DNA of 64,000 bases from Maribacter polysiphoniae (GTDB lineage: Bacteria > Bacteroidota > Bacteroidia > Flavobacteriales > Flavobacteriaceae), in assembly GCF_003148665.1 (NCBI RefSeq), contig NZ_QGGQ01000001.1, positions 922,133 through 986,132 on the forward strand. Reading direction: 5' to 3'. The position numbers and the translations under genes are program-made. A model generated the notes under the pieces. The model did not search any database. It was not told where the DNA came from and worked only from the letters and a program-made list of their open reading frames with translations. Shown here in pieces: positions 17,018 through 50,824 of this stretch; the stretch's first letter is position 1, and the number at the start of each line of letters is the position of its first letter.

Positions 17018-17638
17018 ATGAAATCAACAATTTTAAAAATTATCATTGTAGATAATGATCAGGAGCTTTATGAAGGATACCGATTCTTCTTTGAAACTTA
17101 TAGGGATTACGGACTTGAAGGACTGTTTCCTTCGATTAAGGAAGCGCTGTTGGACTATGAAAATATAATGCCCGACATCGTGATTTTAGAAACAAATTTA
17201 TGGAAAGAGGATGGGATTGAGTCTATACATAAGTTTCGCAAAAAGGATCCCAATGTAAAAGTCATTATGATTAATGAACGTTCTGATTTTGAGCGTGTAA
17301 AAAAAGCATTTAAGAATGGTGCTAATGGCTATTTGACCAAGCCGTTGACAAAAAATCGATTGCACAATGCCCTGAACTCAATAAAGTATGAAGGGGCTGC
17401 CATGAGTAATGATATCGTGCAAAAGATAATATCGAATTTAAACGGGAAATCATATCAATCCTTCTCCAAAAGGGAGAACCAGATTATTGATTATCTGTGT
17501 AAGGGGGCGACCTATAAGGTCATTGCCGAAAAATTATTCGTGACCACCAGCACCATAAACTTTCACATACAGAACATATATTTAAAACTTAATGTGAATT
17601 CAAAATCAGAAGCCTTGGTTAAACTAAGGCAGTTGTAG
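17018..17638 (+). CDS. LuxR/NarL-type response regulator with an atypical receiver domain
   Basis: The 206-residue protein has an N-terminal receiver domain (about residues 5-125) and a C-terminal LuxR helix-turn-helix (about 145-206: SKRENQIIDYLCKGATYKVI, then TTSTINFHIQNIYLKLNV). In the receiver, the position of the phosphoacceptor Asp in PDIVILE is Glu58. The conserved Thr/Ser that follows the fourth strand appears as Asn in VIMINE. The lysine in YLTKPL is kept. Loss of the phosphorylation site suggests a receiver held in one state or controlled by another signal. No histidine kinase is nearby. Adjacent genes suggest control of the PorP/SprF cluster, but this is only positional. Confidence 0.88.
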   Translation: MKSTILKIIIVDNDQELYEGYRFFFETYRDYGLEGLFPSIKEALLDYENIMPDIVILETNLWKEDGIESIHKFRKKDPNVKVIMINERSDFERVKKAFKNGANGYLTKPLTKNRLHNALNSIKYEGAAMSNDIVQKIISNLNGKSYQSFSKRENQIIDYLCKGATYKVIAEKLFVTTSTINFHIQNIYLKLNVNSKSEALVKLRQL

Positions 17639-19758: not shown

Positions 19759-19803
19759 TTGGCAATTATTAGAAATCCATTATCTTCGCGTAATCGATTA
19801 CGC
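19759..19803 (+). promoter_or_regulatory. Predicted kduI-operon promoter with perfect 16-bp LacI-type operator
   Basis: TTG at 19759-19761 is followed after 19 bp by TATCTTCG at 19781-19788, one mismatch from TAnnTTTG. The perfect palindrome GCGTAATCGATTACGC occupies 19788-19803, beginning on the last base of the -7 element, so a bound repressor would cover the start site. The ATG of kduI is 13 bp further on. The central CG and 16-bp length are typical of LacI-family sites. Confidence 0.75.
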
Positions 19804-19816
19804 AAAAGTTAAAAAG

Positions 19817-20653
19817 ATGACAAAACACGAACTTAGGTATGCGGCTAATCCTGTTGATGCCAGAAAATACGGGACAGAGGAACTACGTAAAGAGTTTTTG
19901 GTCGAAGCGGTGTTTGTCCAGGATGAAATACGGTTGACCTATTCGATGTATGATCGTTATATCATAGGTGGGGTAATGCCGGTCAGTAAAGATTTAACCT
20001 TGGAAACGATACCATATTTGAAATCGGAAAACTTTTTGGATCGACGGGAATTAGGGATTGTGAATGTCGGAGGAAAAGGAAAAGTAACCGTTGATGGCAA
20101 GGAATATGAACTCAACAAAAAGGAAGCGTTGTATGTTGGGCAAGGATCCAAAGAAGTGGTGTTTTCAAATATCGGGGAAGGGCAACCTTTATTCTATATA
20201 AATTCCGCCCCGGCGCACAAAAGTTTTCCTACCAAGAAAGTGGGTGCGGATGAGGCTGAGGTTGTTCAGCTGGGGGATGAAAAATACGCCAATAAGCGAG
20301 TGCTTAACAAGCTGATCGTAAATAGCATAGTCGAGACCTGCCAATTGCAAATGGGCCTAACGGAACTTTTGCAGGGCAATGTATGGAATACCATGCCGGC
20401 ACATACACATAGTAGACGAATGGAGGCCTATTTCTATTTTGATTTGGAAGAGGGGCAGACCATTAGTCACTTTATGGGTGAACCACAACATACCAGACAT
20501 ATTTTTATGGAGAATAACCAAGCGGTCTTATCGCCCGAATGGTCAATCCACTCTGGATCGGGTACCAGTAGCTATTCCTTTATTTGGGGAATGGCCGGCG
20601 AAAACCTTGATTATGGTGATATGGATGTTTGTGCACCGAACGAACTAAGATAA
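19817..20653 (+). CDS. kduI: 5-dehydro-4-deoxy-D-glucuronate isomerase
   Basis: KduI converts 5-keto-4-deoxyuronate (from unsaturated galacturonate) to 2,5-diketo-3-deoxygluconate in the cytoplasm. The 278-residue length matches the family. The opening HELRYAANPVDARKYGTEELRKEFLV is typical, and the metal site is visible as PAHTHSRRMEAYFYF in the C-terminal cupin half, with a second His near QHTRHIF. It is the first gene of a ten-gene operon with gaps of at most 24 bp, and kduD follows after 9 bp. Confidence 0.96.
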   Translation: MTKHELRYAANPVDARKYGTEELRKEFLVEAVFVQDEIRLTYSMYDRYIIGGVMPVSKDLTLETIPYLKSENFLDRRELGIVNVGGKGKVTVDGKEYELNKKEALYVGQGSKEVVFSNIGEGQPLFYINSAPAHKSFPTKKVGADEAEVVQLGDEKYANKRVLNKLIVNSIVETCQLQMGLTELLQGNVWNTMPAHTHSRRMEAYFYFDLEEGQTISHFMGEPQHTRHIFMENNQAVLSPEWSIHSGSGTSSYSFIWGMAGENLDYGDMDVCAPNELR

Positions 20654-20662
20654 ATTAACAAT

Positions 20663-21448
20663 ATGAAAGATTTATTTGATTTAACCGGAAAAAGAGCCTT
20701 GGTCACAGGAGCTGTCCATGGCTTGGGAATGGCTATGGCCAAAGGATTGGGTAAGGCAGGGGCTGAATTGATTGTGAACAATCATACCCCGGAAACGCTT
20801 GAAACTGCGAAGAAGGAATATGAAAAAGAAGGACTTAAGGTCCATACTTATGTGTTTGATGTTACGGATGATAAAGAAGTGGAAAAACATATAGATTTGA
20901 TTGAGAAGGAAGTGGGGCCCATTGATATTTTGATCAATAATGCCGGTATTATAAAGAGGGTTCCCATGCAGGATATGGAAACTAAGGATTTCGAGGCGGT
21001 TATTGATGTGAATTTGGTAGGGCCCTTCATAGTCTCAAAATATGTGGGTAGAAAGATGATCACCCGACGAGCAGGTAAGATCATCAACATCAATTCAATG
21101 ATGAGTGAATTGGGAAGGGACACTGTTTCGGCCTATGCGGCGTCCAAAGGCGGATTGAAAATGTTGACCAAGAATATGGCAACCGAATGGGCCAAATATA
21201 ACATTCAAACCAATGGGATCGGGCCAGGGTATTTTGCTACGGCCCAAACAGCACCTATACGGGTTAATGGACACCCATTTAATGATTTTATCATCAGTAG
21301 AACCCCTGCGGCCCGTTGGGGAGACCCTGAGGATTTGGTGGGTACGGCAGTATTTTTGGCATCAAAGGCGAGTGATTTCGTTAATGGTCAGATTATTTAT
21401 GTGGATGGTGGTATCTTGGCTACCATTGGTAAACCAGCTAACGAATAG
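20663..21448 (+). CDS. kduD: 2-deoxy-D-gluconate 3-dehydrogenase (KduD), SDR family
   Basis: KduD reduces 2,5-diketo-3-deoxygluconate to KDG with NAD(P)H. The 261-residue protein is a classical short-chain dehydrogenase: nucleotide motif TGAVHGLGMAMAKGLG, NNAGI, and the catalytic Ser with YAASK. The C-terminal VNGQIIYVDGGILATIG is characteristic of KduD-like members. Position directly behind kduI supports this over other SDR roles. An alginate-pathway DEH reductase has a similar fold, so it might also accept DEH; this is untested. Confidence 0.94.
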   Translation: MKDLFDLTGKRALVTGAVHGLGMAMAKGLGKAGAELIVNNHTPETLETAKKEYEKEGLKVHTYVFDVTDDKEVEKHIDLIEKEVGPIDILINNAGIIKRVPMQDMETKDFEAVIDVNLVGPFIVSKYVGRKMITRRAGKIININSMMSELGRDTVSAYAASKGGLKMLTKNMATEWAKYNIQTNGIGPGYFATAQTAPIRVNGHPFNDFIISRTPAARWGDPEDLVGTAVFLASKASDFVNGQIIYVDGGILATIGKPANE

Positions 21449-21461
21449 TAAAGAAACATTT

Positions 21462-22868
21462 ATGGCAGCAAGCAACCCTTTTATACATGATGATTTTCTG
21501 TTGGAAAATAAATTCGCAAAGGAATTGTATCATACCTATGCAAAGAATCAGCCCATAATCGATTACCACAATCATTTACCGCCCCAAGAGATAGCCGAGG
21601 ATAAGATCTTCGGGGATATTACAAAGGTGTGGATCAATGGTGACCATTACAAATGGCGGGCCATGCGTACTTTGGGTATCGATGAGAAATTCATTACCGG
21701 TGATGGATCCGATAAGGAGAAGTTTATGCACTGGGCCAAAACAGTACCTTATACCATGCGTAACCCTTTATATCATTGGACGCATTTGGAATTGGCCCGA
21801 TATTTTGATATCTACGACTTGTTAAATGAAAGTTCGGCGGAAAGGATATATTTGGATACTGCCGAAAAATTGAACACACCGGCATATAGTTGCCAGAACT
21901 TGCTTAGAAAGGCGAATGTTGAGGTCGTTTGTACTACGGAAGATCCATTGGATAATTTGGAGCATCACCAGACATTGGCGAAAAGCAATATCGATATTAA
22001 GGTAAGTACGGCCTTTAGGCCGGATAAGGCCATCCTGGTCGATGCGGAAGGTTATAATGACTACGTAGATGCCTTGGCTAAAGTCGCTGATCTGGAGATA
22101 AATACTTTTGGCGATTTATGTGATGCGCTTAAAAGTAGAATAGCCTATTTTGATAAGAATGGATGTAAGCTTTGTGACCATGGTTTGGATCGGATTCATT
22201 TCGAGAACTTTACGGATTCAGAAATAGAAGTTATTTTTAAAAGAAAAAGAAGCGGTGAAGTGATCTCTGATGAAGAAGCCTCAAAGTTTCAAGGAGCAGT
22301 TCTATTGTTCCTCTCAGAGACCTATCATGAATATGGTTGGGTACAACAATTCCATTTAGGGGCTTTAAGGAATAACAATGCCCGTATGCATCAAATTCTT
22401 GGTCCGGATACGGGATGGGATTCAATAGGGGATTATCCCCAGGCCGAAAAACTATCCGCCTTCTTGAATACATTGGATAGTAAGGATAAATTGGTGAAGA
22501 CCATTATTTACAACCTGAATCCAGCCGATAATGAGGTTATGGCCAGTATGATCGGTAATTTTAACGATGGTAGTGTAAAAGGGAAAGTGCAGTTTGGATC
22601 GGGTTGGTGGTTCTTGGATCAAAAAGACGGAATGACCAAGCAGATGAATGCGCTTTCAAATATGGGGCTTATAAGTTGTTTTATCGGAATGTTGACCGAT
22701 TCGAGAAGTTTCCTATCCTTTCCGAGACATGAATACTTTAGGCGTGTACTTTGCAACCTTTTCGGGAGTGAAATACAACGTGGTGAATTGCCAAATGATG
22801 TTGAATGGATTGGGAAACTGGTACAGGATATCTCATATAACAATGCCAAGGAATATTTTAATTTTTAA
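21462..22868 (+). CDS. uxaC: Uronate isomerase
   Basis: UxaC interconverts D-galacturonate and D-tagaturonate (also glucuronate and fructuronate). The frame is open back to 21213, but that would overlap kduD by 236 bp. The ATG at 21462 gives 468 residues, the family length, and begins MAASNPFIHDDFLLENKFAK. The metal-binding DYHNHLPPQEIA, then KWRAMRTLGI and the C-terminal FGSGWWFLDQKDGM with MLTDSRSFLSFPRHEYFRR all fit. It starts 13 bp after kduD. Confidence 0.96.
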   Translation: MAASNPFIHDDFLLENKFAKELYHTYAKNQPIIDYHNHLPPQEIAEDKIFGDITKVWINGDHYKWRAMRTLGIDEKFITGDGSDKEKFMHWAKTVPYTMRNPLYHWTHLELARYFDIYDLLNESSAERIYLDTAEKLNTPAYSCQNLLRKANVEVVCTTEDPLDNLEHHQTLAKSNIDIKVSTAFRPDKAILVDAEGYNDYVDALAKVADLEINTFGDLCDALKSRIAYFDKNGCKLCDHGLDRIHFENFTDSEIEVIFKRKRSGEVISDEEASKFQGAVLLFLSETYHEYGWVQQFHLGALRNNNARMHQILGPDTGWDSIGDYPQAEKLSAFLNTLDSKDKLVKTIIYNLNPADNEVMASMIGNFNDGSVKGKVQFGSGWWFLDQKDGMTKQMNALSNMGLISCFIGMLTDSRSFLSFPRHEYFRRVLCNLFGSEIQRGELPNDVEWIGKLVQDISYNNAKEYFNF

Positions 22869-22892
22869 AGAACAATAAACCAATCAAAAAAA

Positions 22893-23933
22893 ATGAAAAA
22901 AGTAGTTACATTCGGTGAGATCATGCTCAGATTATCCCCTCCTGGATTTTTAAGGTTTTCGCAAGCCAATAGTTTTGATGTTGTATACGGGGGCGGAGAG
23001 TCAAACGTTGCTGTATCCTTGGCGAATTACGGAGTACCGGTCGATTTTGTAACCCGTTTGCCTAAGAATGATATTGGGGAATGTGCCCTTATGGAAATGA
23101 GGAAAAGAGGGGTGAACACCCAGAACATTGTTTTTGGAGGTGACCGTTTAGGGATTTATTTCTTAGAGACCGGTGCGGTGAGTCGTGGCAGTAAGGTGGT
23201 TTATGACCGTGCACATTCGGCCATTTGTGAGATCAAACCAGGAATGATCGATTGGAAAAAAGTATTTGATGGTGCCGGTTGGTTTCATTGGACAGGTATA
23301 ACGCCAGCAATCTCACAAGGTGCGGCCGATGTTTGTCTTGAAGCTGTGAAAGTGGCCAGTGAAATGGGAATCACGATTTCAACCGATTTGAATTATAGGG
23401 CCAAATTATGGAACTATGGAGGCGATAGGGAGGCCATCATGACCGAACTTACTTCTTACTGTGATATTATTTTGGGCAATGAGGAAGATGCCGAAAAGCA
23501 TTTTGGAATTCATCCCGAAGGCTTGGACGTACATAAAGACGGCCATGATGTTAAGGCAGAGGCTTTTCTTTCAGTTTGCGAACAAATGATGAAAAAATTC
23601 CCGAAAGCAAAAAAAGTAATCACTACTTTAAGAGGGTCCATATCGGCATCCCATAATACATGGGCCGGTGTTCTCTATGATGGTAAAAAAATGTATGAGA
23701 CGCGTCAATATCAAATAACCGATATCGTTGACCGTGTTGGTGGTGGCGATTCCTTTATGGGTGGGTTGATTTATGGACTATTGCAGTATCCCGATGATGA
23801 CCAAAATGCATTGGACTTTGCTGTAGCGGCTTCCTGTTTGAAGCATACCATAAAAGGGGATGCGAATTTGGTGACCGTGGATGAAGTGAAAAAATTAATG
23901 GGAGGTGATGCCTCAGGTAGGGTAGCACGTTAA
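22893..23933 (+). CDS. kdgK: 2-keto-3-deoxygluconate kinase, PfkB family
   Basis: This enzyme phosphorylates KDG to KDPG, the point where the galacturonate and unsaturated-uronate branches meet. The 346-residue protein has PfkB motifs: the N-terminal FGEIMLRLSPPGFLRFSQA with GGGESNVAVSLANYG, and the catalytic signature VDRVGGGDSFMGGLIYGLL with the base Asp. The position between uxaC and the KDPG aldolase gene identifies the substrate. It is somewhat long for KdgK, with an extended region before the signature. Confidence 0.93.
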   Translation: MKKVVTFGEIMLRLSPPGFLRFSQANSFDVVYGGGESNVAVSLANYGVPVDFVTRLPKNDIGECALMEMRKRGVNTQNIVFGGDRLGIYFLETGAVSRGSKVVYDRAHSAICEIKPGMIDWKKVFDGAGWFHWTGITPAISQGAADVCLEAVKVASEMGITISTDLNYRAKLWNYGGDREAIMTELTSYCDIILGNEEDAEKHFGIHPEGLDVHKDGHDVKAEAFLSVCEQMMKKFPKAKKVITTLRGSISASHNTWAGVLYDGKKMYETRQYQITDIVDRVGGGDSFMGGLIYGLLQYPDDDQNALDFAVAASCLKHTIKGDANLVTVDEVKKLMGGDASGRVAR

Positions 23934-23950
23934 TAAAGAATATAAACATT

Positions 23951-24622
23951 ATGGCAAAATACTCAAGATTACATGTTGCAAAAGTGATGGAAGAAACAGG
24001 GATGATTCCCTTGTTTTACCATTCCGATATCGAATTGGGAAAAAAAGTACTCAAAGCCTGTTATGACGGGGGAGCCCGTTTAATGGAATTTACCGCAAGG
24101 GGCGATTTCGCTTTTGAGGTGTTTTCAGAATTGAATAAATATGCCCTTAAGGAATTACCAGGAATGATAATGGGGGTTGGTTCCATTACCGATGCTGGTG
24201 CGGCCAGTATGTTTATGCAAATGGGGGCCAATTTTATAGTAACCCCTTCCTTACGGGAAGATATTGCGTTGGTCTGCAATAGGAGAAAAGTACTTTGGTC
24301 TCCGGGCTGTGGATCATTGACTGAGATAAACCGTGCTGAAGAGCTTGGTTGCGAGATCATTAAACTATTTCCAGGTTCAACCTATGGTCCAGGCTTTGTA
24401 AAAGCGATAAAAGGACCACAACCTTGGACAAGTATTATGCCTACAGGAGGTGTGAGTACAGAGGAAAGCAACCTTAAAGGTTGGTTCGGTGCCGGTGTAA
24501 CCTGTGTGGGCATGGGTTCACAATTGATCAGCAAGGAAATTCTTATGAATAAGGATTATGACCTTTTGAAAAAGAAAGTCGGGGAAGCTCTCGAAACGAT
24601 TAAAAAGATCAGAAACAATTAG
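23951..24622 (+). CDS. kdgA: KDPG/KHG aldolase
   Basis: It cleaves KDPG to pyruvate and glyceraldehyde-3-phosphate. The 223-residue TIM barrel shows the catalytic Glu in LMEFTARGDFAF and the Schiff-base lysine in CEIIKLFPGSTYGPGFVKAIKGP, followed by the phosphate-binding PTGGVS. Family members are also called Eda; the name kdgA is used because it follows kdgK. The dctP-like gene starts three bases after its stop codon. Confidence 0.95.
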   Translation: MAKYSRLHVAKVMEETGMIPLFYHSDIELGKKVLKACYDGGARLMEFTARGDFAFEVFSELNKYALKELPGMIMGVGSITDAGAASMFMQMGANFIVTPSLREDIALVCNRRKVLWSPGCGSLTEINRAEELGCEIIKLFPGSTYGPGFVKAIKGPQPWTSIMPTGGVSTEESNLKGWFGAGVTCVGMGSQLISKEILMNKDYDLLKKKVGEALETIKKIRNN

Positions 24623-24625
24623 GAT

Positions 24626-25603
24626 ATGCAAATCTTTAGAAACCTTACCTTTTTATTTATAGTTCTTCTCATCCAAGGATGTGGCTCGGAAAATGCAACA
24701 AAGACTTTGCGATTAGGGCATGGTTTGGATGTTAGCCACTCCGTTCACAAAGCCATGGTGAAAATGGGTGAAGATCTAGCTCAACGTTCCGGCGGTAAAT
24801 TGAAATTGGAGATCTATCCAAGTCAGCAGTTGGGAACAGAGCGTGAATGTTTGGAACTATTACAAATCGGTAGCTTGGACATGACCAAGGTTTCTGTGGG
24901 TGTATTAGAGAATTTCGCCCCTAAAATGAAAGTTTTAGGGTTGCCCTTTTTATTTAGGGACAGGAAACATTCCTTTGATGTCCTGGATGGTCCTATAGGA
25001 CAATCCCTGTTGAACGAAGGTGAGAAATATTGGTTAAAAGGCTTGGGCTATTACGATGCGGGTAGCCGAAGTTTTTATACCATGAACAAACCTATTGAGA
25101 CTCCCGATGATCTTAAAGGGCAAAAAATAAGGGTCATGGAAAGTGTTACGGCAGTGCGTATGGTACAGGAATTGGGAGGTTCACCAACACCCATTTCATG
25201 GGGTGAACTCTACACATCCTTACAACAAGGTGTCGTTGATGGTGCGGAAAACAATCCACCTAGTTTTTATCTTTCGAGGCATTATGAAGTCTGTAAGTAT
25301 TATTCACTTGATGAACACACGGTCTTACCCGATGTATTACTCATGGGTACCTATAGATGGAACAAGCTGTCGAAGCAAGAACAACAATGGCTTACCGAAT
25401 CGGTACAGGAATCGGTCAAATACCAAAGAAAACTTTGGGCAGAGGCTGAAGCTGAGGCCCTAAGGGAAGTTGAGAAAGCAGGGGTTACCATCACACACCC
25501 CGATAAAACACTTTTTGCAGAAAAGGTCTCTAGTATCTATGAAGATTACAAAGATGATAAGGACATCTACCCACTTATCCAGCAAATAAAAGAAACCAAC
25601 TAA
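24626..25603 (+). CDS. TRAP transporter solute-binding lipoprotein (DctP family)
   Basis: This periplasmic receptor delivers a carboxylated sugar to the membrane subunits encoded next. The 325-residue protein has family motifs YPSQQLGTERECLE, IRVMESV (the arginine that grips the substrate carboxylate) and QQGVVDGAENN. Its signal ends in LLIQGC, so it is predicted to be lipidated, whereas classical DctP proteins are soluble. Context makes galacturonate or another uronate the likely substrate. Confidence 0.93.
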   Translation: MQIFRNLTFLFIVLLIQGCGSENATKTLRLGHGLDVSHSVHKAMVKMGEDLAQRSGGKLKLEIYPSQQLGTERECLELLQIGSLDMTKVSVGVLENFAPKMKVLGLPFLFRDRKHSFDVLDGPIGQSLLNEGEKYWLKGLGYYDAGSRSFYTMNKPIETPDDLKGQKIRVMESVTAVRMVQELGGSPTPISWGELYTSLQQGVVDGAENNPPSFYLSRHYEVCKYYSLDEHTVLPDVLLMGTYRWNKLSKQEQQWLTESVQESVKYQRKLWAEAEAEALREVEKAGVTITHPDKTLFAEKVSSIYEDYKDDKDIYPLIQQIKETN

Positions 25604-25604
25604 T

Positions 25605-26069
25605 ATGGCATTACGAAAACAAATTGATAAAATTCTTGGGAAAACCCTAGTGGTCATTATGGCCATTATGGTCATAAATGTACTCTGGCAGGTGTTTACA
25701 AGATATGTCACGGGCAACCCCAGTTCATTTACCGATGAATTGGCCCGATACCTAATGATATGGGTAGGTATTCTGGGAGCGGCTTATGTTGCCGGAAAGA
25801 ATTTGCATGTGGCCATTGACATCCTGCCCTCAAGGGCTACTGCCAAAACACAGAAAAAGTTAAAGGTCATAGTAACCATACTGATAATCCTATTCGTGTT
25901 TTGTGCTTTTATAGTAGGAGGTTCCCGATTGGTTTATATCTCCTATATTTTGGGACAACAGTCCCCAGCACTGCAAATACCTTTGGCGGTAGTGTATGTA
26001 ATTATTCCGATTAGTGGTCTTTTGATCATTTATTACAAAGTCTCGGATCTCTTAAACCTAAGGTCATGA
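25605..26069 (+). CDS. TRAP transporter small membrane subunit (DctQ family)
   Basis: The 154-residue protein has four predicted membrane helices. The DctQ signature NPSSFTDELARYLMIWVGILGAAYV follows the first helix and KNLHVAIDILPS comes after it. It starts one base after the receptor gene ends and overlaps the large permease gene by four bases, so all three subunits should be made together. It would form the small half of the sodium-driven transporter. Confidence 0.94.
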   Translation: MALRKQIDKILGKTLVVIMAIMVINVLWQVFTRYVTGNPSSFTDELARYLMIWVGILGAAYVAGKNLHVAIDILPSRATAKTQKKLKVIVTILIILFVFCAFIVGGSRLVYISYILGQQSPALQIPLAVVYVIIPISGLLIIYYKVSDLLNLRS

Positions 26070-27364
26070 TGGAAAATATACCCGTTTTAGTATTAGTGAT
26101 TAGTTTTATTTGTCTTTTGGCCATAGGTACGCCCGTTGCTTGGAGCATCGCTATCTCATCCTTATTGACCATGTTGGTAAGCATACCCGGAATACCGGCT
26201 TTTACCACAGTGTCACAACGAATGGCCACGGGACTCGATAGTTTTGCGCTGCTGGCCATACCCTTCTTTATACTTTCTGGGGAACTGATGAATAAGGGCG
26301 GTATTGCCCAACGGCTTATTGCCTTTGCAAAGACCCTAGTGGGTTCCCTACCTGGGGGACTTGCCCTGATCAATGTTATCGCTGCCATGTTAATGGGCGC
26401 TATTGCCGGGTCGGCTATGGCTTCAGCTTCGGCAATGGGTAGTATTCTTGGTCCGGAAATGGAGAAAGAAGGTTATTCCCGTGAGTTTGGTGCTGCCGTG
26501 AATATTACCTCGGCTACCACCGGATTGATAATTCCGCCAAGTAATGTTTTGATCGTGTATTCCTTGGCTAGTGGGGGCGCATCTATTGCCGCCTTGTTTT
26601 TGGCTGGATATATACCTGGGATTTTGACCGGCTTGTTCTTAATGATCGTAGCTTCTTTTTGGGCCAAAAAGAAAAAATATAAAGTAGGAAAACGGAGTAG
26701 CTTAAAAGAGGTTTTTAAAACCTTTATCGATGCCTTGCCCAGTCTTCTTATGCTCGTGGTCGTTATCGGGGGTATTGTAACCGGTATCTTTACCGCGACG
26801 GAAGCATCGGCCATAGCCGTTTTGTATAGTCTTATCCTGGGGTTTGTCTATAAGGAGATTTCTTCTGCGAAATTACCACAGATTTTATTGGACTCTGCTT
26901 CGACTACAGCCATAGTAATGCTGCTTATCGGGGCGTCTATGTGTATGTCATGGGCACTTTCATATGAGAACATTCCACAGGAAATAAGTTCTGGTTTATT
27001 GGGGTTGAGCGACAATAAGATCGTTATTCTTTTGATCATCAATTTGCTACTCTTGTTTGTGGGTGTGTTTATGGACATGACTCCGGCCGTATTGATTTTT
27101 ACCCCTATATTTTTACCTGTCGTCACAAAATTAGGATTGGATCCCGTACATTTTGGAATCATAATGGTGTTGAATCTTTGTATTGGACTCTGTACACCTC
27201 CCGTCGGTTCTGTACTCTTTGTTGGTGTGGGCGTGGCGAAGACAACCATAGAAAAGGTGTTTAAACCGCTTTTACCTTTGTTCATTGCAATGATAGTGGC
27301 CCTGTTCTTGGTTACCTATTTTCCACAGTTGAGTTTGTGGCTACCAAGTTTATTCGACCTTTAA
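26066..27364 (+). CDS. TRAP transporter large permease (DctM family)
   Basis: This is the 432-residue transport subunit with about 12 hydrophobic segments. Typical DctM stretches include GLDSFALLAIPFFILSGELMNKGGIAQRL, GAIAGSAMASASAMG, PEMEKEGYSREFGAAVNITSATTGLIIPPSN and the late NLCIGLCTPPVGSVLFVG. It is coupled by a four-base overlap to the small subunit gene. Uronate import is inferred from its place inside the uxa/kdu operon. Confidence 0.95.
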   Translation: MMENIPVLVLVISFICLLAIGTPVAWSIAISSLLTMLVSIPGIPAFTTVSQRMATGLDSFALLAIPFFILSGELMNKGGIAQRLIAFAKTLVGSLPGGLALINVIAAMLMGAIAGSAMASASAMGSILGPEMEKEGYSREFGAAVNITSATTGLIIPPSNVLIVYSLASGGASIAALFLAGYIPGILTGLFLMIVASFWAKKKKYKVGKRSSLKEVFKTFIDALPSLLMLVVVIGGIVTGIFTATEASAIAVLYSLILGFVYKEISSAKLPQILLDSASTTAIVMLLIGASMCMSWALSYENIPQEISSGLLGLSDNKIVILLIINLLLLFVGVFMDMTPAVLIFTPIFLPVVTKLGLDPVHFGIIMVLNLCIGLCTPPVGSVLFVGVGVAKTTIEKVFKPLLPLFIAMIVALFLVTYFPQLSLWLPSLFDL

Positions 27365-27383
27365 TAGAAAATCATAAAAGACT

Positions 27384-28832
27384 TTGAACATGCAACAATT
27401 AAATAGGGCAAATATCGGTTTAACCGAAAGCCTTCCTATCAAAGTGGTTCAATTTGGTGAAGGTAATTTTTTAAGGGCCTTTGTGGATTATGCCATTCAA
27501 AGGTTGAATAAGGAAGCTGGCTTCAATGCAGGGATTGCTGTTGTACAACCTATTGATAGGGGCATGGTTTCCATGCTGAATGATCAGGACGGCCTATATA
27601 CCCTTTTTTCAAAAGGAATCAAGGAGGGCCAGGAAGTTGAGGAAAAGGAACTTATTACCAATATTGTAAAAGGGATAGATCCATATGCTGATTTCCATGA
27701 TTTTTTGGATTTGGCCAAAGAGGAGCAACTTCAATTTATCATATCGAATACTACGGAAGCAGGTATTGCATATGCGGCAACCGATACCCGGGATATGAGG
27801 CCACCAAGTTCATATCCAGCAAAACTTACTGTATTGCTGCATGAGCGTTACCGGCATTTTGATGGGGCACAAGACAAAGGGCTTACCATTATCCCCTGTG
27901 AATTGATCAATTATAATTCGGATACGTTAAAAAAAATCATACTTGATTATATTGGTTTATGGAAGTTAGAGGAAGGTTTTAAAAACTGGGTTTTGAATGC
28001 CTGTACCTTCCACAATACTTTGGTAGATCGTATTGTACCAGGTTATCCTCGAGATCAAATAGAAGCCTATAATGCACAATTGGATTATGGGGATAAGCTA
28101 CTCGTGAGTGCTGAAACCTTCTTTTTGTGGGTGATAGAAGGGGATGATAGGCTGAAACAAAAACTGCCTTTTCATAAAACCGGCCTCGATGTCAAAATCG
28201 TAAAGGACATGCAGCCCTTCAGGACGCGTAAGGTGCGTATATTAAACGGTGCGCATACGGCAATGGTACCCATTTCAATCTTGTACGGAAACCAGACCGT
28301 AAAGGAAAGTGTTGATGAAAAATTCACGGGGCCATTCATCCAATCAGTGGTATTTGACGAAATAATACCCACCTTGGATATGGACAAGGCGGAATTGGAA
28401 GCTTTTGCAAAAGCGGTATTCGACCGTTTTCGAAATCCGTTTATTAAGCATCAGTTGGCAAGTATTGCCTTAAATTCCATTTCAAAATTTAAGGTTAGGG
28501 TTTTGCCTAGTCTTTTGGAGTTTGTGAAAAGAAAGAACAGCTTGCCCGTGCATATGGTTTTTGCCTTCGCCTGTCTGATCCGTTTTTATAAGGGGGATTT
28601 TAAGGGCAGGGAACTACCTGTCAATGATGATTCGGAAATCGTTGCTGAAATGGCTGGTATATGGCAGTCAGGAAATTATGATGCCATAGCGGAAAAAGTA
28701 TTGTCTAAAACGGAATACTGGGGAGAAGACCTTACAAAGATTAAGGATTTGAGGCAGCGTATCGCAAAAGCTTTACAACTTATAGATGAAGATGGAATAA
28801 GTGAAGGGTTTATTGCATTTAAGAACATATAA
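27384..28832 (+). CDS. uxaB: Tagaturonate reductase (altronate oxidoreductase)
   Basis: UxaB reduces tagaturonate to altronate with NADH. The 482-residue length suits the mannitol-dehydrogenase superfamily. Residues near the start (KVVQFGEGNFLRAFVDYAIQ) form the dinucleotide site, and the catalytic lysine region VRILNGAHTAMVPIS is diagnostic. It lies between the transporter and uxaA, completing the isomerase-reductase-dehydratase series. UxuB, which acts on fructuronate, is similar, but the adjacent UxaA-type dehydratase supports UxaB. Confidence 0.94.
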   Translation: MNMQQLNRANIGLTESLPIKVVQFGEGNFLRAFVDYAIQRLNKEAGFNAGIAVVQPIDRGMVSMLNDQDGLYTLFSKGIKEGQEVEEKELITNIVKGIDPYADFHDFLDLAKEEQLQFIISNTTEAGIAYAATDTRDMRPPSSYPAKLTVLLHERYRHFDGAQDKGLTIIPCELINYNSDTLKKIILDYIGLWKLEEGFKNWVLNACTFHNTLVDRIVPGYPRDQIEAYNAQLDYGDKLLVSAETFFLWVIEGDDRLKQKLPFHKTGLDVKIVKDMQPFRTRKVRILNGAHTAMVPISILYGNQTVKESVDEKFTGPFIQSVVFDEIIPTLDMDKAELEAFAKAVFDRFRNPFIKHQLASIALNSISKFKVRVLPSLLEFVKRKNSLPVHMVFAFACLIRFYKGDFKGRELPVNDDSEIVAEMAGIWQSGNYDAIAEKVLSKTEYWGEDLTKIKDLRQRIAKALQLIDEDGISEGFIAFKNI

Positions 28833-28842
28833 ATAATCATTT

Positions 28843-30456
28843 ATGCAAAAGTTGATCAAGGTTCAGAATGAAGATAATGTAGCTGTCGCTCTTGTTGATT
28901 TAAAGCAAGGGGAGAAATTGCATTTTGAGGGTGATGAGCTTGAAATTTTGGAAGATACCAAAGCCAAGCACAAAATATCCTTGGTCGAACTACAACCTAA
29001 TGATAACATCTACATGTATGGCGTACTGGTAGGTAAGGCAGTTACCCATATAGATAAGGGAGGGTTGTTGACGGTTGGGAATGTCAAACATCAAACCAAC
29101 CCTGTAAAAGGAAAGGCTATCAGCGTTTCGTGGACGGCACCATCCATTGAAAAATGGAAGGATAGGACTTTTATGGGCTATCATCGGCCCGATGGGCAGG
29201 TGGGTACCGAGAATGTTTGGTTGTTCTTTCCATTGGTGTTTTGTGAAAACAGGAACATAGAGGTCCTGAAAGATATTTTTGAAAAAGAACTTTCGATAGG
29301 TAAGGTCAGTAAACAACAACAGTTGTTGCGAAACCTCATTAGCGGGAATGCCACTGATGTGCATGTAGAAGAAGGGGTGCAACAACCCCTGAGCTTAGAG
29401 AACATCAAGGTTAAGTTCATTACCCATCAAGGAGGGTGTGGGGGAATCCGTCAAGATTCGGAGACTTTGGCCAAACTTTTGGCAGGTTATGTAAAAAACC
29501 CGAATGTTGCCGGGGCAACGGTATTGAGTTTAGGGTGTCAAAACCTGCAGGTCGATATCTTCAAAAAAGCATTGTCGAATATTGATCCCAATTTGGAGAA
29601 ACCCGTACTCATCTATGAACAGCAACAAATGGGTACTGTGGACCATATGATGAATACGATCATCAAGGAGTCTTTCGAGGCCATTAAAGAGGCTAATGGA
29701 ATAAAACGAAGACCAGCTCCCCTTTCCAAATTGAAGATGGGATTGGAGTGTGGTGGTTCTGATGGTTTCTCGGGCATATCCGCCAATCCGGCCTTGGGGT
29801 ATGCCTCCGATATTTTGGCGGCATTGGGTGGCTCACCGATACTTTCCGAGTTTCCGGAATTATGCGGGGTTGAACAGGAATTGGTAAACAGATGTGTGAA
29901 TGATGCCGATGGCATTCGATTTATGCAATTGATGCATGACTATGAAAAATCGGTTGTGCAAGCAGGTTCTGGTTTTGACATGAATCCGTCTCCAGGAAAT
30001 ATAAAGGATGGTCTCATTACCGACGCGATGAAGTCTGCAGGGGCAGCCAAAAAAGGGGGTACCTCGCCAATTGAAGCTGTATTGGACTACGCAGAGTACG
30101 TTACCAAACCCGGTCTTAATTTATTGTGTACTCCGGGCAATGATGTGGAAAGCACCACGGGTTTAGTGGGCTCGGGGGCGAATATTGTCCTATTTACAAC
30201 AGGTTTGGGCACGCCTACCGGTAATCCGATAGCCCCAGTGTTGAAAGTTTCAAGCAATACGGTATTGGCAGAACGAATGTCCGATATCATCGATATTGAT
30301 ACAGGGTCAGTCATACGTGGTGAAAAGTCTATTCCCGAAATGGGAGAGGAAATATTGGAGTATGTCATCAAAGTGGCAAGTGGAGAGGTGATGTCCAAAG
30401 CCGACCAATTGGGACAAGATGATTTTATCCCTTGGAAACGAGGGGTTTCCTTATGA
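28843..30456 (+). CDS. uxaA: Altronate dehydratase
   Basis: UxaA dehydrates altronate to KDG using an iron cofactor. The 537-residue protein has the two usual parts: a small SAF-like N-terminal domain (about residues 1-95) and the large D-galactarate dehydratase/altronate hydrolase domain with the motifs GYHRPDGQVGTENVW, THQGGCGG and GLECGGSDGFSGISANPALG. It is the last gene of the kduI operon and its stop overlaps the end of the convergent lacI gene by six bases. Confidence 0.95.
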   Translation: MQKLIKVQNEDNVAVALVDLKQGEKLHFEGDELEILEDTKAKHKISLVELQPNDNIYMYGVLVGKAVTHIDKGGLLTVGNVKHQTNPVKGKAISVSWTAPSIEKWKDRTFMGYHRPDGQVGTENVWLFFPLVFCENRNIEVLKDIFEKELSIGKVSKQQQLLRNLISGNATDVHVEEGVQQPLSLENIKVKFITHQGGCGGIRQDSETLAKLLAGYVKNPNVAGATVLSLGCQNLQVDIFKKALSNIDPNLEKPVLIYEQQQMGTVDHMMNTIIKESFEAIKEANGIKRRPAPLSKLKMGLECGGSDGFSGISANPALGYASDILAALGGSPILSEFPELCGVEQELVNRCVNDADGIRFMQLMHDYEKSVVQAGSGFDMNPSPGNIKDGLITDAMKSAGAAKKGGTSPIEAVLDYAEYVTKPGLNLLCTPGNDVESTTGLVGSGANIVLFTTGLGTPTGNPIAPVLKVSSNTVLAERMSDIIDIDTGSVIRGEKSIPEMGEEILEYVIKVASGEVMSKADQLGQDDFIPWKRGVSL

Positions 30457-31479
30457 GCTAGGATCGAGTCTAGATGAAGACTTGCGTATTTTTAGACTGG
30501 GAGCAAGGACCATTTGTTTTTCGATCTTTACATTGTTGGCACCCATCTGCTCCAAGAAAACCTTGGCAGCTGTTTTTCCCATTAATAGGGGGGATTGATC
30601 TACCGTACTTATCGTTAACTCCATAAACTGGGTAAATGGTTCATTACTGAACCCTACCACGCAGAAGTCTTTTGGAATCTGCAAACCGATACCTTTCAGA
30701 TATTGTATGGCTCCCAAAGCCCCGGGATCACTTGCCGAGAATATGGCATCAGGGGGAGTGGGAAGTTCCATTAATTTTTTGGCAGCATCCTTTCCTGCCT
30801 CGATATCACTTTCTAGGGTAACTATATAGTTTTCATCAAAGGCAATATTATTATCCTTCAAGGCTTGTTTATACCCATGAAATCTATTTTCATATATTTC
30901 GAGGTAGCGATCAACGGTAAAATGGGCAATTTTTGTACAACCTTGATCGATAAGATGTTGGGTGGCCTGATAAGCACCTTCATAATCATCGAGAGTAACC
31001 GAATTAGCCCCCCTTACATTTAATTTACGGTCAAAGAATATAAGAGGTACGTTTTTTCTCAAAATCTGATTGTAATGTTCCGTACCCTTGGTTTGCCTTG
31101 AAGCGGAAATAAGGATACCATCAACTTGGGCGTTCAGCAGGTTTTGCAAAACATCAGCTTCCTTTTTTGCATCCTCATGGGTTTGACAGATTATAACATT
31201 ATACCCCATAGGGTTCAGCTCTTCCTCTATACCGTGGATGACATTGGAGAAAAAAGACCTATTTATGTAGGGTACCACTACCCCAACATTCTTGCTTTTC
31301 CCGCTCTTTAAGGCCATAGCCAATCTATTGGGCTTGTAGTTTAATTCCGCTGCGGTCTCCAATACCATTTTCTTGGTGTCCGCACTTATCCTAGGATTGT
31401 TGTTTAGGGCTCTCGACACCGTTGCAGCAGTGATGTTCAGTGCTTTTGCGATATCATATATCGTCGTTTTTTTACTCAT
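30451..31479 (-). CDS. LacI-family transcriptional regulator
   Basis: The frame is open from a TTG at 31494, but the ATG at 31479 begins exactly at the DNA-binding domain (MSKKTTIYDIAKALNITAAT then VSRALN), giving 342 residues. The hinge region is NYKPNRLAMALKSGKS, and the periplasmic-binding-protein-like sensor domain follows (about 60-335). It is probably the local regulator of pectin genes, responding to a uronate intermediate such as KDG, but the ligand is not visible from sequence. It lies tail to tail with uxaA and head to head with the GH28 gene. Three similar palindromes nearby are proposed targets. Confidence 0.93.
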   Translation of the reverse strand: MSKKTTIYDIAKALNITAATVSRALNNNPRISADTKKMVLETAAELNYKPNRLAMALKSGKSKNVGVVVPYINRSFFSNVIHGIEEELNPMGYNVIICQTHEDAKKEADVLQNLLNAQVDGILISASRQTKGTEHYNQILRKNVPLIFFDRKLNVRGANSVTLDDYEGAYQATQHLIDQGCTKIAHFTVDRYLEIYENRFHGYKQALKDNNIAFDENYIVTLESDIEAGKDAAKKLMELPTPPDAIFSASDPGALGAIQYLKGIGLQIPKDFCVVGFSNEPFTQFMELTISTVDQSPLLMGKTAAKVFLEQMGANNVKIEKQMVLAPSLKIRKSSSRLDPSS

Positions 31480-31529
31480 TTGATTTTTTGTCAAAGAAAG
31501 ACATGATCCTGTTAAAATATAACATCAGT

Positions 31530-31545
31530 GTGTTATCGATTACAA
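31530..31545. promoter_or_regulatory. Degenerate LacI-type operator upstream of the lacI gene
   Basis: GTGTTATCGATTACAA shares the ATCGATTAC core of the kduI operator; its central 14 bases form a palindrome apart from one base pair. It lies 51 bp before the lacI start codon. Next to it on the minus strand is TATATTG, a -7-like sequence one T short of the consensus. Autoregulation is the likely purpose. Confidence 0.55.
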
Positions 31546-31694
31546 TATAAGTATTTGAGAGATAAAAGTACTGTTTTTAAGGAATAAATAGTAATGAACA
31601 ATGGGTTGTATTTTATTGCTTTCAATTTATAATCGCTAAATAGGGAATTTGAGAGCATCAATTTTATTAAAATCGCATTTTTTTCTCTAAAAAT

Positions 31695-31741
31695 TTTGTT
31701 AAATGGTATAATATTTCTTAGTATTGTGCAATCGATTGCAC
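31695..31741 (+). promoter_or_regulatory. Predicted PUL promoter with perfect 16-bp LacI-type operator
   Basis: TTTG at 31695-31698, 20 bp, then TAGTATTG at 31719-31726 (one mismatch to TAnnTTTG) form a promoter. The perfect palindrome GTGCAATCGATTGCAC at 31726-31741 begins on the last base of the -7 element, exactly as at kduI. It governs the GH28-SusC-SusD genes. Confidence 0.75.
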
Positions 31742-31794
31742 GTTGTATTGCAATTATGACCATAAATAGTATGTTGTTTAATACGTTTTATAAG

Positions 31795-33222
31795 ATGCAT
31801 AGGATTAAGGGTTTGGCCTTGTTAGGGGCTATTTTGTTATTTGCCTCATGTAAACAAAAAGAAAGTCAAGCATTTGACCCATGGAAGCAAATGACCCAGA
31901 TAGTCGATTCCATAACACTACCGACTTTTAGGGCGGATACCCTCAATATTCTTGATTTTGGTGCTGTTGCGGATGGGGTATTTGATAATACCGATGTTTT
32001 CAGGAAGGTCATGGATACTTGTTCGAAAGCTGGTGGTGGTACGGTATTGGTCCCAAAAGGAAGGTTTTTGACCGGACCCATACATTTAGAGAATAATGTC
32101 AATCTCCACTTGGAAGAAGGGTCGGAAATAATGTTCAGTAAAAATCTGGATGATTATTACCCACTTGTGCACACGTCCTATGAAGGTACTGAATTAATGA
32201 ATTTCTCACCCTTGATCTACGCTTACAAAAAGAAAAATATTGCTGTTACCGGAAAAGGGGTGTTGAATGGCCGGGCGGGTAATGATTTTTGGTGGCCTTG
32301 GTGCGGAAAGGATAGTTATGGTTGGCAAGAAGGAGCCCCAAAACAACATTCTTCCCTTAAAAAACTTAAGGAGGAAATGTCTGAGGTTGACGTTCCTGTA
32401 AATCAGAGGATATTTGGAAAAGGGGAATTTTTGAGACCAACATTCATTGAACCATTTTCCTGCGAGAATGTACTTATACAAGGGGTGAAGATCATAAACG
32501 CACCTTTTTGGGTTATCCATCCTATCAAATCAGTCAACGTGACTGTTGACGGTGTTGTTGTTGAGAGTCATGGTCCAAACAACGATGGCTGTGATCCGGA
32601 ATACTCAAAAAATGTTTTGATAAAGAATGCCGTATTCAATACGGGTGATGATTGTATTGCCATAAAATCGGGTAGAAATGAAGATGGTCGACGAGTAGGT
32701 ATAAAAAGTGAAAACATCGTAGTGCAGAATTGCAAAATGATCGATGGGCATGGAGGGGTCGTAATTGGAAGCGAGGTTTCTGCTGGGGTACGGAATGTGT
32801 TTGTTGAAAATTGTACCATGGACAGTCCCAATCTGGAACGGGCTATCCGTATAAAAACAAACTCCAAAAGAGGGGGTGTCATTGAAAATGTCTATGTACG
32901 GAACTTAAAGGTAGGGCAGGTTAGGGAAGCTGTGCTTAAGATCAATCTTTTTTATGGTATCTACGGAATCCAAAAAGGGGATTTTATTCCCGAGGTTAGA
33001 AATATCCATTTGGAAAATGTCCAGGTAAAGAATGGTGGGAAATATGGCATTCTGGCTAAAGGATATGCGCAATTACCTATTACGGACATTACTTTAAAGG
33101 ATGTCTTGATCGAAAAGGTAGATGCAGCCTATTCCCTTGAAAACGTAACGAACTTAAACTTTATTAATACAAGAATCAATGGAAAAATAATGCAAACTAA
33201 GAGTAACTCACTTGAACATTAA
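31795..33222 (+). CDS. Polygalacturonase, glycoside hydrolase family 28, lipoprotein
   Basis: GH28 enzymes hydrolyse alpha-1,4 bonds between galacturonic acid residues (or galacturonate-rhamnose bonds). The frame is open from 31696, but a start there would lie inside the promoter; the ATG at 31795 begins the lipoprotein signal MHRIKGLALLGAILLFASC and gives 475 residues. The right-handed helix has the four family motifs: NNDGCD, TGDDCIAIKSG, GHGGVVIGSE and RAIRIK. It is the first gene of the PUL, followed 18 bp later by susC. Confidence 0.93.
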   Translation: MHRIKGLALLGAILLFASCKQKESQAFDPWKQMTQIVDSITLPTFRADTLNILDFGAVADGVFDNTDVFRKVMDTCSKAGGGTVLVPKGRFLTGPIHLENNVNLHLEEGSEIMFSKNLDDYYPLVHTSYEGTELMNFSPLIYAYKKKNIAVTGKGVLNGRAGNDFWWPWCGKDSYGWQEGAPKQHSSLKKLKEEMSEVDVPVNQRIFGKGEFLRPTFIEPFSCENVLIQGVKIINAPFWVIHPIKSVNVTVDGVVVESHGPNNDGCDPEYSKNVLIKNAVFNTGDDCIAIKSGRNEDGRRVGIKSENIVVQNCKMIDGHGGVVIGSEVSAGVRNVFVENCTMDSPNLERAIRIKTNSKRGGVIENVYVRNLKVGQVREAVLKINLFYGIYGIQKGDFIPEVRNIHLENVQVKNGGKYGILAKGYAQLPITDITLKDVLIEKVDAAYSLENVTNLNFINTRINGKIMQTKSNSLEH

Positions 33223-36402: not shown

Positions 36403-36412
36403 AAAAAAAACG

Positions 36413-39219: not shown

Positions 39220-39229
39220 AATATTTATT

Positions 39230-39670
39230 ATGCGTACTAAACACTTTTTTATTAGAATTAACCATTCTTTTACTTGCTTCATTTTTGTGTTCCTTTTGGT
39301 ACAAACCTTAGTAGCCCAAGAAAAAGTGTTCACTATTGAAAATTGTGTGAACACTTTTGATTTGGACAAAAAACATACGACTGAGGTCGGTTACCAATAT
39401 TGGTTTGCCGATAAGGATTTTTTGGATGGTAGAACGCTGAAGATGAGTGTTGTGGAACCAAATAAGGCAACACATGCGCCACACAAACACGTAGAGGATG
39501 AGTTTTTTTTCATTCTGGAAGGATCTGCGGAGTTTTATCTAGATGGAAAAACAGTTACCGTTCCACCGTATACGAGCCTATACTGTCCTTCGAATATAAT
39601 GCATGGGATACGTAATGTTGGTGATACGCAATTAAAGTATTTGGTCATTAAAAAATATCCTAGCAATTAA
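39230..39670 (+). CDS. Exported cupin, KdgF-like candidate
   Basis: The 146-residue protein has a long N-terminal hydrophobic stretch ending LVQTLVAQ, consistent with export to the periplasm. The mature part is one cupin with metal-ligand motifs APHKHVEDEFFFILEG and, later, NIMHGIRNVG. In pectin and alginate catabolism the cupin KdgF helps open unsaturated uronates to linear ketouronates, but KdgF is normally cytoplasmic. Placement 10 bp after the DUF4861 gene and one base before the first GH105 gene supports a role on the unsaturated product; identity with KdgF is not proven. Confidence 0.7.
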   Translation: MRTKHFFIRINHSFTCFIFVFLLVQTLVAQEKVFTIENCVNTFDLDKKHTTEVGYQYWFADKDFLDGRTLKMSVVEPNKATHAPHKHVEDEFFFILEGSAEFYLDGKTVTVPPYTSLYCPSNIMHGIRNVGDTQLKYLVIKKYPSN

Positions 39671-39671
39671 G

Positions 39672-40916: not shown

Positions 40917-40945
40917 CATTTTTGATAATAAAAAAACAAGACTAA

Positions 40946-42172: not shown

Positions 42173-42183
42173 AATATAAGCGC

Positions 42184-43590: not shown

Positions 43591-43626
43591 TATGAATCGC
43601 GTTTAGCTTTAAATAAAACCATTTTT

Positions 43627-46280: not shown

Positions 46281-46282
46281 TT

Positions 46283-47935: not shown

Positions 47936-47949
47936 CTAAATTTTTCTTT

Positions 47950-50705: not shown

Positions 50706-50824
50706 AGTCGGCTCATAAGGCTTTGGGTTGTTTTACTGGAGGGGAGTAGCATAATCCGAATAGGAGAAATGGCACATGGGAGAACGTTAAGACGCCCAGT
50801 TCGATAGCATAAACAAAATCAGGG

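Follow-up and report, generated by a model that had tools for sequence, protein, structure and literature searches.

A LacI-family protein encoded at positions 30451–31479 very probably acts as the local repressor at the operators of a pectin/galacturonate locus in Maribacter polysiphoniae, where it would be released by an effector and be subject to negative feedback. The preliminary description had proposed a single repressor covering the start sites of both the catabolic operon and the PUL, and this reading of the sequence is supported by the register of the sites with the promoters, by their conservation and by their association with orthologs of the regulator.

Genes and candidate operators of the locus

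The window, i.e. the whole stretch of DNA analysed (64 kb), carries the following genes of the locus:

19817–20653, + strand: kduI, 5-dehydro-4-deoxy-D-glucuronate isomerase, first in the catabolic operon (NCBIfam NF002091, 3e-126)
20663–21448, + strand: SDR dehydrogenase, kduD-like by position (NCBIfam)
21357–22868, + strand: uxaC, uronate isomerase (PF02614, 4.3e-205)
22893–23933, + strand: KDG kinase-type sugar kinase (NCBIfam, below curated cut-offs)
23951–24622, + strand: eda, KDPG/KHG aldolase (NF005499, 1.5e-113; PF01081)
24626–27364, + strand: TRAP transporter with binding protein, small and large permease (NCBIfam; small permease below cut-off)
27384–28832, + strand: uxaB, tagaturonate reductase (NF002969, 2.8e-200)
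28843–30456, + strand: uxaA, altronate dehydratase (PF20629/PF04295/PF08666)
30451–31479, - strand: lacI-family gene, 342 aa, proposed regulator (PF00356, PF00532/PF13377)
31756–33222, + strand: GH28-family enzyme, first PUL gene (PF00295)
33241–38029, + strand: SusC and SusD homologs (Pfam)
38230–51820, + strand: rest of the PUL (Pfam)

The SDR dehydrogenase scores above the cut-off of the gluconate 5-dehydrogenase model and below those of the kduD models in NCBIfam. According to Pfam, the region 38230–51820 includes DUF4861, cupin, two Glyco_hydro_88-domain and two Gfo/Idh proteins as well as an apiosidase-like protein, GH43, a Pec_lyase plus pectinesterase protein, a GDSL esterase and a BD-FAE esterase. 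We take the two Glyco_hydro_88-domain proteins to be of the GH88/GH105 type, and the Pec_lyase plus pectinesterase protein is presumably of the PL10-CE8 type.

The promoter elements and candidate operators are located as follows:

19759–19761, + strand: TTG of the -33 element, kduI promoter (sequence)
19781–19788, + strand: -7 element TATCTTCG, kduI promoter (sequence; register kept in orthologs)
19788–19803, no strand: candidate operator of the catabolic operon, GCGTAATCGATTACGC (palindrome, genome scan, cross-genome comparison)
31530–31545, no strand: third candidate operator, asymmetric, upstream of the lacI-family gene (GTGTTATCGATTACAA; TGTAATCGATAACAC on the lacI strand)
31696–31698, + strand: TTG of the -33 element, PUL promoter (sequence)
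31719–31726, + strand: -7 element TAGTATTG, PUL promoter (sequence)
31726–31741, no strand: candidate operator of the pectin PUL, GTGCAATCGATTGCAC (palindrome, genome scan, cross-genome comparison)

As had been described, inspection of the sequence shows a palindrome that is perfect over 16/16 bp at each of the two promoters, and the first base of each palindrome is the last base of the -7 element. The TTG lies 19 nt (kduI) and 20 nt (PUL) upstream of the -7 element. Both perfect sites are even palindromes with a central CG, the form reported for LacI/GalR operators (PMC4052901). The weaker copy said to precede the lacI-family gene is likewise present, with 6/8 matching pairs at 51–66 nt upstream of that gene.

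Rarity of the motif in the genome

Palindromy by itself is ordinary, and it is the cross-genome comparison that is decisive. The view that these palindromes arose by chance or are structural repeats with no role in regulation can draw on the frequency of perfect 16-bp palindromes, of which the window holds three versus an expected mean of 1.25 per window in 100 first-order Markov simulations. However, two such palindromes with a common 8-bp core appeared in 0/100 simulations, and conservation, register and regulator association across 299 and 395 genomes speak against it. We rejected this view on the simulations and the cross-genome occurrence; short of a systematic bias it is refuted, and its probability is close to nil.

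Within the 5.13-Mb genome, exact RYGYAATCGATTRCRY has two occurrences only, both at pectin promoters, and its reversed control has 0 matches. The looser 14-mer YGYAATCGATTRCR is found in three places, the third of which (by inference C5:193900) falls within a reading frame of 147 aa and has no window-gene homolog in its vicinity. Eight sites with two mismatches were found outside the locus, and none of their 3-kb loci contains a homolog of a window gene. The strict motif is thus confined to the two pectin promoters and is not common at unrelated genes of this genome.

Association of site and proposed regulator across genomes

For the comparison between genomes we used a composite site consisting of the -7 element plus operator (TANNWTNG-NGYAATCGATTRC), which yielded 99 sites in 39/299 genomes of the family. 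The composite was present in 39/42 family genomes with a tight LacI ortholog vs 0/257 without, and in 21/23 vs 7/372 genomes of the phylum sample (395 genomes). The sites are conserved in related loci in the same register and track the ortholog of the proposed regulator. Considering only phylum genomes new to the analysis, the ratio was 17/18 vs 7/358, with 15 of the 18 previously unused ortholog genomes belonging to one genus. The cut-off for tight orthologs was set after a gap in the scores was seen; at E 1e-90 the counts are 39/44 vs 0/255 (family) and 23/36 vs 5/359 (phylum). The Fisher tests used ignore shared ancestry. A tight ortholog also occurs in all 46 genomes of the YGYAATCGATTRCR count, and further families of the phylum encode LacI homologs at 44–50% identity.

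Tight orthologs lacking a strict composite occurred in three family genomes (G009, G025, G193) and in two genomes of the phylum sample (G426, G063); in G009, the -7 element reads TATATTTA. Among the named ortholog loci the composite was present in 71/79 and absent in 8/79 (reversed control 0), and no composite site lay within 15 kb of 8/46 ortholog genes.

The same 99 sites bear on the extent of the operator. The central CG is set by the search pattern and hence offers no test of the LacI/GalR operator form, and the G at position 1 (99/99 sites) is fixed in the same way; position 16 is C in only 14/99. We therefore rejected the idea that the repressor site by itself has 16-bp perfection. Its outermost base is part of the -7 element and the base at the right-hand end is variable, so that the 14 bp of YGYAATCGATTRCR describe the repressor's own palindrome better.

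Candidate target genes and promoter register

Homologs of uronate-catabolic, SusC/pectinase or pectate-lyase genes lie within about 3.5 kb downstream of 95/99 composite sites. Uronate-catabolic homologs account for 36 of the 99 sites and SusC/pectinase-type homologs for 47, many of the SusC assignments being at about 30% identity, which is insufficient to demonstrate pectin specificity. For the remaining 16 sites, the first reading frame of at least 100 aa is a PF00544 pectate lyase in 11 cases, five of which carry CBM77, and a Pel9A-like helix in one; the four sites L184, L192, L194 and L231 are not followed by any gene of the expected kinds. For L180 and L247, the assignment is by weak similarity (25–26% to the PL10 gene). 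The 109 sites of the named ortholog loci divide into 58 PUL/pectinase and 51 uronate sites, categories that are not independent evidence because these are pectin loci already.

When the operator was searched without the promoter, the full TAnnTTYG was found at gap 0 in 33/83 sites and at each of eight other gaps in 0 or 1, among the matches listed. In 29/83 of these same listed sites, no sequence at the register reached a score of 5 out of 6 as a -7 element; three or more of these 29 cases are artefacts of filter or keying. A TTG at a gap of 18–21 upstream of the -7 element accompanies 54/99 composite sites, versus 1–17 in ten other four-wide ranges. Given the -7 box of F. psychrophilum at -12 to -5 (PMC9723704), the operator would span approximately -5 to +11, as one would expect of a blocking site.

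This placement, directly 3' of the -7 element and over the start region at both kduI and the PUL, argues against the protein being an activator or a dual regulator like Cra rather than a pure repressor. Activating LacI-family proteins such as Cra/FruR are known (PMC4052901), and the operator at lacI sits upstream instead of over an evident start site; nonetheless, we regard this role as very unlikely.

The LacI-family protein and its relatives

The proposed repressor shows LacI/GalR architecture, an N-terminal helix-turn-helix domain (PF00356 at 52.6 bits, cut-off 27) preceding a domain like those of periplasmic binding proteins (PF00532 and PF13377), and no named regulator model of NCBIfam scored above cut-off. 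The solved structures closest to it in sequence are of the CcpA type and are uninformative on the effector.

The recognition residues AATVSR are found in 34/36 tight orthologs with an examined locus; the count of 78/79 in the named loci is circular because the loci scan used that peptide as its pattern. The genome encodes eight other LacI-domain proteins, and the core AATCGATT is common to several LacI subgroups, so the sites might instead be bound by another paralog, with the linked gene as a bystander. Against this, 0/8 of these proteins have AATVSR, which is unique to the linked protein in this genome, and an ortholog is present in 39/39 family genomes with a composite site and in 21/28 such genomes of the phylum set (23/28 at E 1e-90). 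We consider a bystander role extremely improbable.

The subgroups sharing this core also have adjoining uronate genes. Two LacI proteins with PSAVSK adjoin GTTCAATCGATTGAAC, namely in G008 (by kdgK/eda) and G046 (by uxaA/uxaB), while three with SSTVSR (G013, G014, G032) have ATACAATCGATTGTAT or GTACAATCGATTGTAT at kduI. These proteins differ from the linked protein (43–45% identity) in operator flanks and recognition residues, a link between flank and recognition helix that covers five genomes. No perfect palindrome of that kind was found for paralogs with PAAVSK or AAAVSK (L044, L045, L048, L049).

A LacI-type repressor probably controls its own gene, as the site upstream of lacI suggests. 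The asymmetric form of this site is found in 15/36 ortholog loci; where ortholog loci have a symmetric site in front of lacI (19 loci), a TANNWTNG octamer faces away from lacI in 14. Alternatively, the site at 31530 could form a loop with the PUL operator instead of serving autoregulation; the two are 196 bp apart here and in G010, and 185 bp apart in G041. However, the match to CcpA ends at residue 335 of 342, and a protein ending so shortly after the core domain should lack the space for a tetramerisation tail of the lac type. Furthermore, the asymmetric site persists in G005, G006 and G009, where lacI has no symmetric site within 400 nt upstream. Looping is thus unlikely.

From these observations we infer a simple switch under autoregulation. 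The LacI-family protein, as a dimer, would bind the palindrome YGYAATCGATTRCR; with the operator abutting the -7 element at the catabolic operon and the PUL, the bound repressor would cover the transcription start and block RNA polymerase. Release would come from a cytoplasmic intermediate of the uronate pathway, and KDG, at which the uxa and kdu branches meet, is the most plausible candidate. The weaker asymmetric operator upstream of lacI would provide negative feedback. More tentatively, and with somewhat less than even confidence, the -7 element and operator may form a fused module (TAnnTTTG directly followed by YGYAATCGATTRCR), in which the final G of the -7 element doubles as the outer operator base. 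Such a module would have been placed ahead of SusC/D, pectate-lyase and catabolic operons that are unrelated to one another, across the whole of the Flavobacteriaceae, with the regulator's own operator kept in a conserved form away from the consensus (AATCGATA) and thereby setting the level of feedback.

Relation to known systems

In Bacillus, a LacI-family KdgR regulates KDG/pectin catabolism, and in enterobacteria this is the role of an IclR-family KdgR. Both belong to other phyla than Bacteroidota, and the enterobacterial protein also to another family. Closer examples are KdgR (BT0487) and UxaR (BT0824) of B. thetaiotaomicron, with predicted LacI-family uronate regulons (PMC3878776, PMC4052901). 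By their published description, they share with the present protein the LacI family and the phylum, and probably also a role in glucuronate/galacturonate catabolism. The KdgR regulon of B. thetaiotaomicron is among those reported to have a limited number of genes for periplasmic/extracellular proteins (PMC3878776), whereas in the present case the operator is found at whole PULs and at secreted pectate lyases.

The preliminary description had set LacI control apart from the hybrid two-component and anti-sigma systems common for PULs. No hybrid two-component or ECF/anti-sigma domain was found by NCBIfam and Pfam in the genes scanned at 17898–51820. The rhamnogalacturonan PULs of B. thetaiotaomicron have been assigned to hybrid two-component systems (PMC3878776). 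The distinction is too strong, because the one-component regulators ManR (GntR family) and AraR (NrtR family) of B. thetaiotaomicron are predicted over catabolic and extracellular/PUL-type operons (PMC3878776). There too, one cytoplasmic regulator is assigned to monosaccharide catabolism together with extracellular/periplasmic enzymes, in the case of ManR also SusC/SusD; the protein families and the sugars are different. A LuxR-type response regulator is encoded at 17018–17635, outside the PUL and the linked operon.

In Gramella flava, growth on pectin reportedly induced uxa/kdgK/eda but left susC-susD of a pectin PUL uninduced (PMC5306329). No description of a pectin regulon of this kind was found in the literature covered, subscription journals lying outside it. 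LacI regulation of uronate use is already known, as a prediction in Bacteroides, and the present regulon is a well-supported new example.

The finding provides a motif that predicts pectin-regulated genes from sequence in 35 sampled genera, names a candidate regulator, and suggests a design for inducible promoters in flavobacteria. It also makes the identity of the cytoplasmic intermediate that reports pectin availability testable. If the -7 element and operator are indeed a fused module, everything from secreted enzymes to central metabolism would be a single-input switch. Altogether, a repressor with a promoter-overlapping site appears to link the extracellular digestion of pectin with the intracellular catabolism of sugar acids in many flavobacteria.

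Paired putative operators at the catabolic operon and the pectin locus

The preliminary description placed perfect operators identically at two pectin promoters, with a weaker third copy before the lacI-family gene. All three sites lie where they were placed, and both palindromes are perfect over 16 bp. The first base of each is also the final base of a Bacteroidota -7 element (TATCTTCG and TAGTATTG), with a TTG 19 or 20 nt upstream of these elements.

Features in the window

5722-5737, perfect 16-bp palindrome TTCGGGATATCCCGAA within an AcrB-type efflux gene, expected by chance
17018-17635, gene for a 206-aa LuxR-type response regulator, lying before the catabolic operon
19788-19803, first palindrome, before the catabolic operon
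30451-31479, minus strand, lacI-family gene (342 aa), between catabolic operon and pectin locus and opposite to them in strand
31530-31545, third copy, imperfect (6/8 pairs), upstream of the lacI-family gene
31726-31741, second palindrome, before the pectin polysaccharide utilization locus (PUL)
59600-61933, gene for a chondroitinase-B-type polysaccharide lyase (PF14592) at the window end, outside the regulon

The operon after the first site comprises kduI, a kduD-like dehydrogenase, uxaC, a KDG-kinase-type sugar kinase, KDPG aldolase, a TRAP transporter, uxaB and uxaA, and encodes both pectin-sugar routes to KDG and beyond. The PUL after the second site starts with GH28, SusC and SusD and also holds two GH88/GH105-type hydrolases, a pectic acid lyase-pectinesterase fusion, GH43, an apiosidase-like enzyme and esterases. 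Domain scans of the catabolic-operon, lacI and PUL genes found no hybrid two-component, sigma or anti-sigma domains. In three related genomes (L096, L097, L099), frames of 206-212 aa whose starts resemble one another precede the operon.

Perfect 16-bp palindromes as such are not rare (three in the window vs 1.25 expected), and two sharing the same 8-bp core occurred in 0 of 100 simulated windows. In the 5.13-Mb genome, RYGYAATCGATTRCRY was found only at the two pectin-operon sites, and the reversed control (the motif written backwards) gave no match. Allowing two mismatches to GYGYAATCGATTRCRC added nine matches, namely the lacI site and eight elsewhere, whose 3-kb loci contained no homolog of any window gene; the motif is not common at unrelated genes.

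Conservation and association with the LacI ortholog

The LacI protein was searched against 99 genomes (its own and relatives), which revealed a group of 53-84% identity in 12 genomes besides its own, before identity fell to 45%; the nearest named ortholog is that of Maribacter luteus (83%). Conservation of the site before kduI held in the window, G010, G005, G006, G022, G041, G050, G059 (two loci) and G026, while in G009 such a site precedes kduD. Each of these kduI/kduD sites immediately follows a -7-like octamer (TATATTTA in G009). No such kdu site was found in G025 and G028, where the compared stretches lack a kduI homolog, and in G063 it lies ~730 nt from kduI. Of 36 ortholog loci, 19 have a symmetric site no more than 400 nt upstream of lacI; at 14 of these 19, TANNWTNG matches the octamer that points away from lacI. 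G005, G006 and G009 lack a homolog of the window SusC at E 1e-200 and any symmetric site within 400 nt upstream of lacI, yet retain both the kdu and the lacI site.

The exact 16-mer occurred in 14 of the 99 genomes (11/13 with a tight, i.e. close, ortholog vs 3/86 others). From the orthologs, we defined the composite TANNWTNGNGYAATCGATTRC, joining -7 element and operator, and searched 299 family genomes. It matched 99 sites in 39 genomes (reversed control, 3 matches), representing 35 of the 236 genera sampled. Tight orthologs were defined by a best match better than 1e-107 (42/299 genomes; the next match was 2.4e-97, and 44 genomes qualify at 1e-90). All 39 composite-bearing genomes fall within these 42, leaving G009, G025 and G193 with a tight ortholog and no composite site (Fisher p 9e-46, which ignores shared ancestry). 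Across 395 genomes sampled from the phylum, the same cut-off gave 21/23 ortholog genomes vs 7/372 others, and E 1e-90 gave a weaker association (23/36 vs 5/359). Two of the seven others (G431, G475) carry a 45-48% LacI homolog within ~4 kb of the site; the remaining five are G388, G421, G565, G569 and G667, none with a close ortholog. G421, G569 and G667 belong to one other family and share the identical match TAAGTTCGAGCAATCGATTGC. Among 376 previously unused genomes the counts were 17/18 vs 7/358, with 15 of those 18 from one genus. At least one composite site was present at 71 of 79 named ortholog loci, which come from Maribacter, Flavobacterium, Galbibacter and others (109 sites; reversed control 0).

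Recognition helix and possible autoregulation

The recognition helix reads AATVSR in 34 of the 36 tight orthologs whose locus was compared (GATVSR in L034, VATVSR in L037); the eight further LacI proteins encoded in the window's genome all lack AATVSR. PSAVSK paralogs are adjoined by GTTCAATCGATTGAAC in G008 (L084, by kdgK/eda) and G046 (L088, by uxaA/uxaB), and genomes with SSTVSR paralogs, G013 (L085), G014 (L083) and G032 (L086), carry ATACAATCGATTGTAT or GTACAATCGATTGTAT at kduI; no perfect palindrome of this kind accompanied the PAAVSK or AAAVSK paralogs. In this small sample, the operator core is common and its flanks seem to track the recognition helix, which is what one would expect were these sites read by the linked LacI protein. 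The GTTCAATCGATTGAAC- and ATACAATCGATTGTAT-type subgroups may represent sister uronate regulons in which the flanks have changed.

In 15 of 36 ortholog loci, the regulator gene itself has, 63-81 nt upstream, an operator in which AATCGATA replaces AATCGATT. Among 79 named loci, 45 have a AATCGATA-type site within 400 nt of lacI, and the reversed control gave none. The one-sided deviation, seen in the window at 31530-31545, is constant in those 15 loci, as though a weakened site were selected. Judged from sequence, this conserved weakened site suggests tuned autoregulation.

Promoter-operator geometry

Because the composite has its register built in, the operator was also searched without the -7 element in 46 genomes, each of which has a tight ortholog, using a pattern that misses sites having C at one upstream base. 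Among the 83 sites drawn from the 150 matches listed, the full TAnnTTYG stood directly upstream at 33 and a -7 score of at least 5/6 at 54, compared with 0-1 and 2-6 sites at eight other gaps and means of 0.2 and 4.9 in shuffled flanks. The remaining 29 scored below 5/6, including G146:174202, G041:72194 and G295:223536, which are really composite (other strand counted apart or filtered). TTG was enriched 18-21 nt upstream of the -7 element (54 of 99 composite sites), and the kduI start codon lies 26-30 nt past it in 21 of 24 kduI cases. A passage of PMC9723704 places the F. psychrophilum -7 box at -12 to -5. With the box in the same position here, the operator would extend from about -5 to +11 and cover the transcription start site.

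Genes behind the sites and known regulators

Comparing ~3.5 kb downstream of all 99 sites (as the contig allowed) with the window genes, we found uronate-catabolic homologs at 36, SusC/pectinase-type homologs at 47 (many SusC matches being near 30%, and L180 and L247 assigned on weak PL10 similarity) and neither at 16. The first reading frame at 11 of these 16 is a PF00544 pectate lyase, five with CBM77, and at one a Pel9A-like helix; it had no domain at L184 and L194 and none above the cut-off at L231. At L192 (G176:C26:11883), the composite precedes a small Crp-like protein with a cyclic-nucleotide-binding domain just above the cut-off, and a regulatory cascade is possible there.

Passages of PMC3878776 and PMC4052901 describe the Bacteroides LacI regulators KdgR, UxaR and UxuR as predicted for glucuronate/galacturonate use, ManR and AraR as predicted one-component regulators that cover both catabolism and extracellular or PUL-type operons, and the rhamnogalacturonan PULs of B. 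thetaiotaomicron as assigned to hybrid two-component systems. Like KdgR, UxaR and UxuR, the regulator proposed here from sequence is of the LacI family and would act on uronate use; in contrast to the B. thetaiotaomicron PULs, the window's pectin PUL stands behind a putative LacI operator. Since such regulators have already been predicted, the present regulon belongs to a known kind. What makes this predicted regulon notable is that it takes in whole PULs and secreted lyases, is spread over 35 of the family's 236 sampled genera and has a fused promoter-operator.
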